A stretch of DNA of 64,000 nucleotides, from positions 186,001 to 250,000 of the forward strand of contig NZ_CP127295.1 in assembly GCF_030285665.1 (NCBI RefSeq), written 5' to 3'. This DNA is from Amycolatopsis mongoliensis. Lineage in GTDB: Bacteria; Actinomycetota; Actinomycetes; Mycobacteriales; Pseudonocardiaceae. Of the stretch, positions 11,152-14,914 are shown one piece after another (the stretch's first letter is position 1; each line of letters opens with the position of its first letter). The notes beneath the pieces are model-generated. The model was not told the DNA's origin. It was given only the letters and a program-made list of their open reading frames with translations, and did no database searches. A program made the translations under genes and the position numbers.

Positions 11152-11739
11152 ATGTCCCGGGTCAAGGAGTTCGACGTCGACGAAGCCTGCGACGCCGCGC
11201 TCGGGCTCTTCCGGCGTCAGGGCTACGAAGCGACGTCGGTGAGCGACCTCGTCACGCACCTCGGCGTCGCCAAGGCGAGCCTGTACGCCACCTTCGGCAC
11301 GAAGCACGACCTCTACGTGACGGCGTTGAAGCGCTACGCCGAGCGGACCGACACCCGGGTCGTGTCCGAGCTGTCGAAACCGGGCTCGGGCGTAGCTGCG
11401 GTGCGGCGGCTCCTCGACGGCTACACCGCGGACATCCTGGGCGAAGACGGGCCCATCGGCTGCTTCGTCGTCAACGCGGCGATCGAGCTGCTCCCCCGCG
11501 ACCCGGCGGTCGCCCGGATCGTCGAGCGCAGCTGGGACACCCTCGAGGTCGCCCTGACCATGGCGCTCGAACGCGCCAAGACCCAGGACGAACTCCCCGG
11601 CGGCAGCGACCCGGCGACGCTGGCGCGGTTCCTGCTCACCGTGCTCCAGGGACTACGCGTCCTGGGCAAGGGCACGGACGCGGCGAGCCGGCTGAACGCG
11701 GCCGTCTCGCAGGCGATGCGCATACTCATTCGAGACTGA
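11152..11739 (+). CDS. TetR/AcrR-family regulator of the adjacent SDR
   Basis: A 195-residue repressor. The N-terminal HTH is clear in QGYEATSVSDLVTHLGVAK followed by ASLYATFGTKHDLY (about residues 22-55); the C-terminal ligand domain has GPIGCFVVNAAIEL, typical of the AcuR/NemR-like subgroup that senses electrophiles or small acids. It starts at ATG 11152 right after its promoter. The SDR gene follows 22 bases later in the same direction, so it is the most likely target. Confidence 0.9.
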   Translation: MSRVKEFDVDEACDAALGLFRRQGYEATSVSDLVTHLGVAKASLYATFGTKHDLYVTALKRYAERTDTRVVSELSKPGSGVAAVRRLLDGYTADILGEDGPIGCFVVNAAIELLPRDPAVARIVERSWDTLEVALTMALERAKTQDELPGGSDPATLARFLLTVLQGLRVLGKGTDAASRLNAAVSQAMRILIRD

Positions 11740-11761
11740 TCAGACCAGAAAGAAGGCACGT

Positions 11762-12514
11762 ATGGGGGCACGGTTCGCAGGCAAGGTCGTGCTGGTGACC
11801 GGCGGTGGCTCGGGCATCGGGCTGACGACGGCGAAGGCGTTCGCCGCCGAGGGCGCGACGGTCGTCGTCGCGGGCCGGGACGAGCAGCGGCTCGCGTCCG
11901 CGGTGAAGGAGATCGGCGACGCGGCGAGCGCGGTGCAGGTCGACGTGACCGACTCGGCGGACGTGGCGCGGATGGTCGCCACGGTCGTCGAGCGGCACGG
12001 TGGGCTGGACGTCGCGGTCAACAACGCGGGCGTCCTCGGGTCGCCGGCCCCGGTGGCGGACCTCGACGAGGACGACTTCGGCGCGGTGATCGGCACGAAC
12101 CTCACCGGCACCTGGCTGTGCCTGAAGCACGAGGTCGCGCACATGCGGGCGCACGGCGGCGGCGCGATCGTCAACATGGCCTCGAACATCGGCGCGCACG
12201 GCCGGCTGCCGCGCATGGCGGCCTACGCGGCGTCGAAGGCCGCGGTGAGCGCGCTGACCCGCACGGCGGCGCGCGACCACATCGCCGACGGCGTCCGCAT
12301 CAACGCGGTCAGCCCCGGGGCGACTGCCACGGACATGTCGCTGCGTCCCGGTGAGACGGACGCGGACCGCGCCGCGCGGTTGAAGGACGCGATCCCGCTG
12401 GGCCGGGTGGGGGCCACCGCCGAGGTGGCCGCCGCGGTGCTGTGGCTGGCTTCGGACGAAGCGGCCTTCACCGTGGGGCACGACCTGGTGGTCGACGGCG
12501 GCGCGACCGCCTGA
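11762..12514 (+). CDS. Short-chain dehydrogenase/reductase (SDR)
   Basis: A classical 250-residue SDR with the cofactor motif TGGGSGIG (about residues 14-21), NNAG near residue 86, catalytic Ser in NMASNIGAHG and the YAASK catalytic Tyr/Lys near residues 155-159. Arg in VAGRDEQRL at the end of beta-2 suggests NADP(H). The C-terminal DLVVDGGATA is standard. The substrate is unknown. A purine-rich GAAAGAAGG precedes the ATG. It forms a two-gene unit with the TetR regulator upstream and points at the end of the hexapeptide array. Confidence 0.9.
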   Translation: MGARFAGKVVLVTGGGSGIGLTTAKAFAAEGATVVVAGRDEQRLASAVKEIGDAASAVQVDVTDSADVARMVATVVERHGGLDVAVNNAGVLGSPAPVADLDEDDFGAVIGTNLTGTWLCLKHEVAHMRAHGGGAIVNMASNIGAHGRLPRMAAYAASKAAVSALTRTAARDHIADGVRINAVSPGATATDMSLRPGETDADRAARLKDAIPLGRVGATAEVAAAVLWLASDEAAFTVGHDLVVDGGATA

Positions 12515-12540
12515 GCGGCCCCACCCGGGCCCGCGGTTCT

Positions 12541-12561
12541 TCAGGACTCACGGTTGCGCAT
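12541..12561 (-). CDS. MRNRES hexapeptide mini-ORF, unit 5
   Basis: ATG start with GAGAGGGG about nine bases upstream, then five sense codons and TGA. Codon 4 is CGT instead of CGC, a synonymous change. Confidence 0.55.
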   Translation of the reverse strand: MRNRES

Positions 12562-12609
12562 GGTGACGTTCCCCTCTCGTGCCGGGACGGACTCGGGTGC
12601 ACGGCGTGG

Positions 12610-12630
12610 TCAGGACTCGCGGTTGCGCAC
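12610..12630 (-). CDS. MRNRES hexapeptide mini-ORF, unit 4
   Basis: GTG start with GAAGGAG about seven bases upstream. The encoded peptide is identical to the other units. The preceding spacer resembles the one before unit 3, pointing to a recent duplication. Confidence 0.55.
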   Translation of the reverse strand: MRNRES

Positions 12631-12671
12631 GGCTGCTCTCCTTCCGGACGTGGTGACGGGCGGGCGCGGGC

Positions 12672-12692
12672 TCAGGACTCGCGGTTGCGCAC
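12672..12692 (-). CDS. MRNRES hexapeptide mini-ORF, unit 3
   Basis: GTG start with GGGAGGAG about six bases upstream. The peptide is identical to the other units and ends in TGA. Confidence 0.55.
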   Translation of the reverse strand: MRNRES

Positions 12693-12734
12693 GGCAGGCT
12701 CCTCCCGGACGTGGTGGTGACGGGCTGCGACGGC

Positions 12735-12755
12735 TCAGGACTCGCGATTGCGCAT
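12735..12755 (-). CDS. MRNRES hexapeptide mini-ORF, unit 2
   Basis: ATG start with GAGGAGG five bases upstream, the strongest ribosome site of the array. Codon 3 is AAT instead of AAC, a synonymous change. Confidence 0.55.
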   Translation of the reverse strand: MRNRES

Positions 12756-12801
12756 GACGACCTCCTCGCTGCTGCACGGCGAAAATGCGGGCTTCGGCGG
12801 C

Positions 12802-12822
12802 TCAGGACTCGCGGTTGCGCAT
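12802..12822 (-). CDS. MRNRES hexapeptide mini-ORF, unit 1 (promoter-proximal)
   Basis: ATG start with AGGGAGG five bases upstream. This unit is nearest the 113-base region shared with the divergent diguanylate cyclase gene, where the array promoter should lie; no strong -10/-35 pair is obvious. Confidence 0.55.
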   Translation of the reverse strand: MRNRES

Positions 12823-12935
12823 GACGGCCTCCCTTCACTGGTCCGATCGTGTGGCAATCGTCGATCGAGGTCGCCCGATGTGGTGAAGTGGACGCGGATC
12901 GTCGGATCACCCAGGGGAGTTGCACCGCCTTGAGT

Positions 12936-14240
12936 ATGGACGGCGCCCGTCCGGCCGAACCCCGCGTGGGCCGGATCCGTGGGGCGCTTCTCCCTGCTCA
13001 CTGGACCCTGTGGCGGCAGCGCGGGTCGCTGGTCTTCTACTGCTTCCTCGTCGAGTCCGTGGCGCTCGTGGCCACCGCCTGGACCGCCGTCTCGGTGCCC
13101 GTGGACGGGTGGGACCTGGTCGTCTTCGGCGTCCTCGCCGGCCTCGGCGTGCTGCAGGCGGAGCTGGGCCGGCAGATCGAGCGCGTCCGGCGGCTGGTGT
13201 CCGACACCCCGCACATCAACCTGACGTCGGTCTGGACGTTCGCCGGCGTGCTGCTCCTGCCGCCCGCGCTCGTCACGGCCCTGGTCGCCGTCCTCTACCT
13301 GCACCTGGCGACGCGCAGCCTCGCGCGGATGAAGCGCGTCCCGCCGTTCCGGACCACGTTGAACGCGACGCTGGTCGTCGTCACCTGCTACTCGGCCGAG
13401 CTCGTGCTCGCGCGCCTGGGCGTCCCCGACATGTACGCCGCGCTGACGTCGGGCTGGCGCGGCGTCACGGCCATCGCGCTGGCCGCGGTGACGTACTTCC
13501 TGGTCGCGGCGATCACGATCCTCCCGGCGCTGACGATCACGAAGCGCACGGTGAAGGCGTTCTTCGGCGGCCTCGGCGACAACCTCCTCGAGGTCGCGAC
13601 GCTCTGCCTGGGCCTGCTCACGGCGTTGACGCTGGCGACGCTGCCCGCGCTCGCCGTCGCGATCGTGCCGCCGCTGCTGGTGCTGCACCGGGCGGTGCTG
13701 ATCAAGCAGCTGGAGATCGCCGCCACGACCGACGAGAAGACGGGCCTGTTCAACACGACCGGGTGGCACCTGCTCGCTTCGCGCGAACTGGCCCGCGCCC
13801 AGCGCAGCACGCGAAGCACGTTCGGCGTGCTGATGATCGACCTGGACTACTTCAAGCTGATCAACGACGAGCACGGGCACCTGGCGGGCGACACGGTGCT
13901 ACGGGCGGTCGCGGCGACGATCAAGAGCGCGGTGCGCGACTACGACTCGGTCGGCCGCTTCGGCGGCGAGGAGTTCGTGGTGCTGCTGCCGGACATCGGT
14001 CCGGCGGCGGTGCTCGCGGTGGCCGAGCGCATCCGGTCGGCGATCGAATCCCTGAAGGTCGAGTACGAGGACGGCAGCCGCATCCGCGTCATCGACGCCC
14101 TGTCGGCGTCCATCGGCGTGGCGACGTACCCGGACGGCGGCACGGCCGTCGAACGGCTGCTGCAGGCCGCGGACAAGGCCCTCTACCGGGCCAAGGACGC
14201 GGGCCGCAACCAGGTGGTCGACGGCACCGCCACCGCCTGA
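12936..14240 (+). CDS. Membrane-anchored diguanylate cyclase (GGDEF)
   Basis: The 434-residue protein makes cyclic di-GMP from two GTP. About residues 25-255 hold six to eight hydrophobic segments in the membrane; the GGDEF domain follows from about residue 265 (TTDEKTGLFN). The active-site motif is RFGGEEF, and RDYD lies exactly five residues before GGEEF, so the inhibitory I-site (RxxD) is intact. LMIDLDYFKLINDEHGH carries the Mg-binding Asp and substrate contacts. Start choice is uncertain: ATG at 12936 or TTG at 12930, the latter better spaced from GGGGAG (12914-12919). It is transcribed divergently from the MRNRES array. Confidence 0.9.
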   Translation: MDGARPAEPRVGRIRGALLPAHWTLWRQRGSLVFYCFLVESVALVATAWTAVSVPVDGWDLVVFGVLAGLGVLQAELGRQIERVRRLVSDTPHINLTSVWTFAGVLLLPPALVTALVAVLYLHLATRSLARMKRVPPFRTTLNATLVVVTCYSAELVLARLGVPDMYAALTSGWRGVTAIALAAVTYFLVAAITILPALTITKRTVKAFFGGLGDNLLEVATLCLGLLTALTLATLPALAVAIVPPLLVLHRAVLIKQLEIAATTDEKTGLFNTTGWHLLASRELARAQRSTRSTFGVLMIDLDYFKLINDEHGHLAGDTVLRAVAATIKSAVRDYDSVGRFGGEEFVVLLPDIGPAAVLAVAERIRSAIESLKVEYEDGSRIRVIDALSASIGVATYPDGGTAVERLLQAADKALYRAKDAGRNQVVDGTATA

Positions 14241-14287
14241 CCCACTCCCCCCGTTTCCGGCCCTTGACCAGGCGACTTGTCATTTTT

Positions 14288-14321
14288 GCTCGGGCGAGCT
14301 AAATTTTGCTCATGCGAGCAA
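14288..14321. promoter_or_regulatory. Two TetR-type operators 20 bp apart overlapping the tetR start
   Basis: GCTCGGGCGAGC (14288-14299) and TTGCTCATGCGAGCAA (14306-14321) are inverted repeats sharing the half-site GCTC/GAGC. Their centres are 20 bp, about two helical turns, apart, and the second spans the ATG at 14312. Autorepression by the downstream TetR protein is the natural inference. Confidence 0.6.
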
Positions 14322-14914
14322 GAACGTTCACCGAGTCCGGCAGGCGGGCCCAGATCGTGCGGGCGGCGATCGAGGTGATCGCCGAGGCCGGCTACGCCAA
14401 GGCGTCGTTCAGCCGGATCGCAAAGCAGGCGGGCCTGTCGAGCACCGGCATGATCAGCTACCACTTCGCGGGCAAGGACGACCTGCTCGCGGCGTGCGTC
14501 GCCGAGATCGAGCTGGTCACCGGGGCGTTCATGCAGCCGCGCATCGACGCCGCCGTCGGGCACGTCGCGCAGCTGCGCGCCTACGTCGAAGCGAACGTCG
14601 CCCTCGTCGGGGAGCACCCCGCCGAGGTCCAGGCGCTGATCGACCTGGTGAAGAACGCCGGCTCGCGGAGTGACGCCGTCAACGGGCGGCTCGCGCTGTT
14701 CGAAGAGCACTTCCGCACCGGGCAGGCGGCCGGCGTCTTCGGCGCCTTCGACGCCCGGACCGCGGCGCTCTCCCTCACCGCCGGGCTCGACGCCGTGGTC
14801 GCCACGGCGGCCGCGGCCGTGCCCGGCCCCACCGAGCTCGCGCGCGTCGGCCGCGAGCTCGCCGACCTCTACGTGCGGGCGACCGCACCCGAATCCGCTG
14901 GGGGATCCGCATGA
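14312..14914 (+). CDS. TetR-family regulator of the membrane-protein/monooxygenase operon
   Basis: A 200-residue repressor with the HTH in AGYAKASFSRIAKQAGLSS followed by MISYHFAGKDDLL, typical of TetR proteins. The C-terminal half is helical with no recognised ligand motif. The ATG at 14312 is preferred over the TTG at 14306 because both lie inside the operator and the family starts with a short basic arm (MRARTFTESGRRAQIV). The next gene overlaps its stop by four bases and the FAD monooxygenase follows, so the three form one autoregulated operon. Confidence 0.88.
   Translation: MRARTFTESGRRAQIVRAAIEVIAEAGYAKASFSRIAKQAGLSSTGMISYHFAGKDDLLAACVAEIELVTGAFMQPRIDAAVGHVAQLRAYVEANVALVGEHPAEVQALIDLVKNAGSRSDAVNGRLALFEEHFRTGQAAGVFGAFDARTAALSLTAGLDAVVATAAAAVPGPTELARVGRELADLYVRATAPESAGGSA

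Follow-up and report, generated by a model that had tools for sequence, protein, structure and literature searches.

Tandem hexapeptide minigenes divergent from a membrane diguanylate cyclase gene in Amycolatopsis: a candidate multicopy peptide signal

The window analyzed here is a 64,000-nucleotide stretch of the Amycolatopsis mongoliensis genome (RefSeq assembly GCF_030285665.1, contig NZ_CP127295.1, positions 186,001 to 250,000, forward strand), and positions within it are counted from its first base. At 12541–12822, on the minus strand, it carries five tandem minigenes of 21 nt, each running from a start codon through the hexapeptide MRNRES to a TGA stop codon. Direct reading and a repeat search gave the same coordinates, confirming a first-pass annotation, made from the sequence alone, that had described five identical mini open reading frames (ORFs) at this site. 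Unit 1 (12802–12822, ATG) has the Shine-Dalgarno (SD) sequence GGAGG 5 nt upstream, unit 2 (12735–12755, ATG, asparagine encoded by AAT) has AGGAGGT 4 nt upstream, unit 3 (12672–12692, GTG) has GGAGG 8 nt upstream, unit 4 (12610–12630, GTG) has AAGGAG 7 nt upstream, and unit 5 (12541–12561, ATG, second arginine encoded by CGT) has a weaker SD (GAGG). The starts lie 67, 63, 62 and 69 nt apart, and the three ATG and two GTG units have identical translations. Divergent from the array is a diguanylate cyclase (DGC) gene (12936–14240, plus strand) encoding an N-terminal membrane domain of approximately 268 residues followed by a GGDEF domain (PF00990, 149.4 bits vs a cut-off of 23.8), with GGEEF and RxxD motifs present in the translation.

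The comparison of Pseudonocardiaceae genomes suggested by the first-pass annotation was run with a pattern of MRNRES-TGA with a TCN serine codon in 390 genomes of the family, 80 of them from Amycolatopsis. The array was found in 26 of the 80 Amycolatopsis genomes and in none of the 310 genomes of other genera, and the reversed-pattern control returned zero in every genome listed. The window genome (10,811,244 bases, one contig) contains five exact matches, all in the array, and allowing two mismatches adds one further, unrelated place. By the genome-wide match count, the reversed-pattern control and its recurrence within the genus, the array is far beyond chance. Each of the 25 other arrays forms one cluster of 4–11 units, mostly spaced 59–70 nt apart (the one in genome G051 spans two contigs), and a DGC match adjoins the array in all 26 genomes.

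In total, 178 units were collected from these 26 genomes, allowing up to six mismatches. In the 890 sense codons that follow the start codons, all 152 differences are synonymous and none changes an amino acid, with variation confined to third codon positions and the start base; all 178 units end in TGA, and one has lost its start (GTT). Every unit is preceded by an SD match of 4 nt or more, and 148 by one of 5 nt or more, compared with 22% and 7.7%, respectively, of all ATG and GTG codons across the window. In addition, one relative encodes MRNRES with AGC serine codons in two units, and a related MRSRDN array (L129) uses both CGN and AGG arginine codons within the single array. These synonymous-only differences and codon family switches agree with the earlier proposals that the units differ only synonymously or in the start codon and that the peptide, not the DNA as such, is under selection. 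The spacers, described as mostly unrelated, are not entirely so: two in the window share an 18-nt stretch at 94% identity (repeat family D7).

The first-pass annotation had described the array as standing alone; instead, it belongs to a repeated module of a peptide gene, a DGC gene and, often, a transporter gene. The N-terminal membrane domain of the window DGC, here called the sensor domain, defines a family found mainly in the Pseudonocardiaceae. Homologs at E 1e-40 were detected in 41 of 55 genomes (54 genomes of the genus without a pattern match and the window's own), and the divergent minigenes at these loci encode MRNRDS, MRNRES (with AGC serine), MRNRET and MSNRDT. More distant paralogs in the genus face MRDRGN, MRNRDN, MRNKDL, MNGRED, MAGRDQ and MEGKEW; among 20 further genus paralogs, 13 carry a minigene, and minigenes, often in arrays, were present at all 20 DGC loci picked from other genera of the Pseudonocardiaceae.

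These sets were extended by scanning GTDB genomes with a 30-sequence alignment of the sensor domain; the 80 top-ranked of 85 named loci were used, drawn from Amycolatopsis, Kutzneria, Kibdelosporangium, Actinophytocola, Thermocrispum, Haloechinothrix, Labedaea, Solihabitans, Herbihabitans, Actinokineospora, Pseudonocardia, Fodinicola and a Propionibacteriales metagenome-assembled genome. With fixed criteria (an SD match of 5 nt or more, 5–7 residues, at most 600 nt upstream of the DGC), a divergent minigene was found at 74 of the 80 loci, many of which are mutual orthologs; the same-strand control gave 2 of 80, and dinucleotide shuffling gave a mean of 4.4 of 80 over 20 rounds. A strong SD with a TTG start at one more locus (L210) raises the total to 75. 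The peptides vary between DGC paralogs around a common motif, M-x-[NGSDT]-[RKW]-[DEGS]-x, which was defined after the first sets were known and fits at all 74 loci and at neither same-strand control. As background, the window and 26 fetched loci contain 30 such ORFs outside arrays in 1,141,218 strand-bases, none of which fits the motif.

A wide spread of the sensor family in the phylum was rejected, as the window's own genome alone matched a sensor profile at E 1e-15 among 396 phylum genomes (six candidates scored per genome). Two outliers beyond the Pseudonocardiaceae, in Fodinicola feengrottensis (L181) and the Propionibacteriales genome (L182), face MRNRDT units and MRNKGL; they were perhaps acquired by transfer. 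In fold, the sensor domain may resemble the S-components of energy-coupling factor (ECF) transporters. A Foldseek search gave nothing at E 0.001, and in Pfam 4 of 30 members match MASE9 weakly (best E 0.012), with no Pfam cut-off reached.

The third partner is a major facilitator superfamily (MFS) transporter gene, present in 13 of 21 clustered neighbourhoods on the same strand as the DGC and with its end facing the minigenes. Besides these two, no gene family occurs in more than 3 of the 21 neighbourhoods (heuristic gene calls of at least 100 residues), and a modification enzyme was rejected as a partner on this count. The MFS gene is of efflux type (Pfam MFS_1, 82.6 bits vs a cut-off of 33.4 for one member, at L277), and NCBIfam transporter models (TIGR00900, EntS and others) score below their cut-offs. 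Among the 80 named loci, 44 have a same-strand MFS gene upstream of the DGC, all 44 with a peptide gene, and the MFS gene is lacking at all five loci without one. In eight Amycolatopsis genomes, 39 MFS subfamily members were detected at E 1e-40; 38 of them are immediately upstream of a sensor DGC, at a gap of 149–917 nt. Every one of these 38 gaps is occupied by a peptide gene in divergent orientation, with 29 cases of minigenes of 5–7 residues, eight of a single ORF carrying PTDW(T) repeats and one RNNTW set. The same genomes have 61 sensor DGCs after four fragment rows were dropped; of the 23 remaining outside these pairs, 16 were examined, with a peptide gene in seven and none found in nine. 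The window genome's four MFS members sit at other peptide loci, not at the MRNRES array.

The single ORFs show a second way of encoding many copies. In the window genome, the DGC at 4,912,831 (L264) has no minigene and faces a divergent ORF with seven PTDWT copies, and its counterparts in seven other genomes carry 2–10 copies of PTDW between one start and one stop, in each case between the MFS and DGC genes (L264, L307, L316, L319, L322, L324, L326 and L328). In genome G006, the gap before the DGC at 7,059,651 (L329) holds three SD-led ORFs of 13–14 residues with two RNNTW copies each, a form that stands between the minigene arrays and the repeat precursors. Because both forms place many core copies next to a DGC and an MFS gene, the selected property looks like peptide copy number and not how many times translation is initiated. 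A row of minigenes and an ORF with many repeats would then be two evolutionary answers to the same need for many copies.

Within arrays, the residue after methionine varies and the C-terminal core is kept, with few exceptions, as in MRNRDN/MANRDN/MTNRDN (L173), MSKDL/MRSKDL/MSSKDL/MCSKDL/MHSKDL (L216), MNKDW/MVNKDW (L187) and MSNRDL/MRNRDL/MANRDL (L323); in one gap ORF scan only one start was retained for each stop, which may put some unit lengths out by a codon. From the kept cores, the recognized part is probably the last four residues. The result is the opposite of what would have refuted the first-pass annotation, a peptide that changes freely over conserved nucleotides: peptides change between paralogs, and copies within an array keep their last residues. 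Cores in the window genome are MRNRES, MCGRDN, MRTRDQ, MSNRDF/MANRDF and PTDWT. The eight genomes yielded 45 peptide loci, 4–9 per genome, with no core occurring twice within one genome, which is consistent with each DGC paralog having its own private peptide line.

Taken with the placement of the DGC, these features lead us to favor, with somewhat better than even confidence, the interpretation that the array is a multicopy gene for a leaderless signal peptide, whose product is exported and sensed by the divergent DGC, thereby setting the level of cyclic di-GMP (c-di-GMP). Among the roles offered by the first-pass annotation, a dosage-multiplied peptide signal is the best fit. An mRNA with several ribosome sites would yield much peptide (predicted product fMRNRES), and one ribosome could perhaps translate so short an ORF over and over. 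For the seven-codon microcin C gene, reiterative translation has been measured in vitro, with a fitted value of 71 cycles (PMC6495379). The peptide, perhaps trimmed, would then be exported by the MFS protein, or at MRNRES loci by an MFS paralog or another route, and would bind the sensor membrane domain of the adjacent DGC to change c-di-GMP. More tentatively, with chances we place just short of even, the loci together could represent a new class of communication system, defined by ribosome-made leaderless peptides of 5–7 residues that are multiplied through minigene arrays or repeat ORFs, dedicated MFS export, S-component-like DGC sensors and a four-residue C-terminal code word, with four to nine private lines in a single Amycolatopsis genome.

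Several results weigh against this interpretation. Export is the weakest point for the window array because the MRNRES loci, at all sites seen, have a short-chain dehydrogenase (SDR) gene in place of the MFS gene; in the window it lies at 11762–12514 on the plus strand, with its 3' end toward the array. The SDR gene was itself rejected as a module partner, being a neighbor only at MRNRES and MRNRDS loci while the DGC is constant. No minigene was found at two of the first 29 genus loci (L070 and L071), and no peptide gene was detected at 7 of the 20 further genus paralogs (L097, L103–L105, L108, L110 and L113), 5 of the 80 named loci (L207, L211, L213, L215 and L217) and 3 of the 8 sensor-type DGCs of the window genome (L255, L261 and L263). 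Three of the nine repeat cases (L307, L316 and L329) were spotted by eye and missed by the scripts. Gap peptides outside the motif include MRARDQ, MRKSQNW, MSARDW, MSDNNW, MRGIEY and MRGQNW; one L216 unit reads MCSKDR instead of ending in KDL; and at L260, a GGDEF gene lacking this sensor, an SD-led ORF encodes MRPLR, also outside the motif, the 12 control GGDEF hits including some fragments. Lastly, peptide cores appear to follow the sensor tree (48 domains, 44 with a peptide; 16 core types with 15 changes, the minimum), a pattern that linkage alone would also give, leaving co-evolution unproven.

Neither an MFS gene nor a peptide gene was found at the DGC groups L243, L298, L299 and L302–L305, nor at L103–L105, L108, L110 and L113. 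Such DGCs may respond to peptides produced at other sites, or to a different ligand.

The weakness of export at the MRNRES loci therefore makes an intracellular ligand the main rival: the peptide would stay in the cell and bind the adjacent DGC as a report of array expression, and the MFS protein would do something else. The lack of an MFS gene at the MRNRES loci, the lack of a signal sequence in the peptides and the position of the sensor's conserved charged residues in stretches read as cytoplasmic all speak for it. We nevertheless regard it as unlikely, given that 38 of 39 MFS subfamily members sit at peptide–DGC loci and that a peptide gene accompanies each of the 44 named loci with an MFS gene.

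A secreted antimicrobial or effector of the microcin C kind, with the MFS protein in export or immunity and the DGC as regulator, would suit a gene of few codons next to an MFS exporter and peptides that vary between loci. The microcin C exporter MccC is likewise an MFS protein. A stand-alone start-to-stop gene of a few codons is also shared with mccA, which has seven (PMC6495379), and the 5–7 residues fit the length of a microcin C precursor. However, a search of 18 genomes for PF00899, the family of the ThiF-type enzyme MccB, gave hits in every genome and none within 20 kb of the located DGC loci (nearest approximately 21 kb), and membership in the microcin C family was rejected for this reason. 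The last residue, asparagine in microcin C, can here be Ser, Thr, Trp, Asp, Leu, Gln or Gly as well, the copies are in tandem, no further modification gene is found in over 3 of the 21 neighbourhoods, and what stays constant beside the peptide gene is a sensor-cyclase. That the cores follow the sensor tree also counts against this explanation, although linkage would give the same pattern. We consider it improbable.

We give still less weight to a ribosome or tRNA device, in which repeated initiation and termination (peptidyl-tRNA drop-off, or a ribosome sponge) would matter and the peptide would be incidental. Strong SDs and very short ORFs are what such a device would have, and the toxicity of minigenes is known. 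Against it, peptide cores are kept through synonymous changes that include AGC and AGG codons, and single-start PTDW(T) ORFs of 2–10 copies occupy the same position at other DGC paralogs. Together with an array RNA that folds less stably than 100 of 100 shuffles, these ORFs weaken both of the other earlier suggestions, peptidyl-tRNA sequestration and ribosome-based regulation of an RNA. Finally, the 21-nt unit could be a repeated DNA or RNA binding site, which would suit the lack of change at first and second codon positions of the MRNRES arrays and their fairly even spacing of close to 62 nt. This is very improbable in light of variation restricted to third positions and the start base, the synonymous swaps in relatives, the low stability of the array RNA relative to its shuffles, and the absence of any Rfam match over the gathering score in 11500–14500. 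An RNA family or structure was rejected on the fold result and on the single sub-threshold Rfam match (E 0.81), which lies inside the DGC gene.

Returning to the exported signal, the nearest described systems share some of its features. RRNPP and arbitrium signals of Firmicutes and phages have mature forms of approximately 5–8 residues and private receptor–peptide pairs, the latter also proposed here; those peptides are cut from longer exported precursors and are read by cytosolic regulators. Like the leaderless communication peptide (LCP) read by RopB, the present genes are very short, lack a secretion signal and are divergent from a candidate receptor gene (75 of 80 loci), and in L. reuteri the receptor gene of LCP is divergent and a transporter gene convergent (PMC10518010). 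The LCP/RopB systems of Firmicutes are characterized there by a cytosolic RRNPP-type receptor, an ATP-binding cassette (ABC) transporter and a single-copy hydrophobic peptide; in contrast, the Actinomycetota loci have a membrane GGDEF protein as constant neighbor and candidate receptor, an MFS gene, and multicopy charged or polar peptides. ECF S-components, which the sensor may resemble in fold, differ in being transporter subunits and not sensors.

Direct reading of a cell–cell signal by a c-di-GMP enzyme, as proposed here, has precedents in autoinducer 2 (AI-2) with a dCACHE DGC and BDSF with RpfR, which are small non-peptide signals with different sensor domains; no peptide signal is named in the sections of the 2022 review that cover them (PMC8846402). 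Literature searches, with preprints and most subscription papers outside their coverage, turned up no title or abstract opening on tandem hexapeptide minigenes or on a peptide-sensing DGC, and found "MRNRES" in no paper. If the interpretation is correct, a large group of antibiotic-producing actinomycetes would have a peptide language not found described, and c-di-GMP enzymes would gain peptide ligands. The candidate ligand of each receptor can be read from the adjoining genome sequence, and ligand, receptor and exporter are therefore testable with short synthetic peptides. Genes of 21 bases such as these are overlooked by gene finders.

The flanks of the array have features of their own. The intergenic stretch between unit 1 and the DGC start (12823–12935) is strongly conserved among MRNRES loci; it presumably holds two divergent promoters and possibly a shared operator, and a scan with sigma-70 promoter and terminator consensus sequences found none at the locus. 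Past the last unit, a G+C-rich segment at 12519–12536, also conserved at MRNRES loci, adjoins the SDR stop codon and may be a terminator that lacks a T tail. The last unit of the arrays differs from the inner ones in that its second arginine codon is mostly CGT and a leader of its own, GTCACC, precedes the start, so that the first and last units look positionally distinct.
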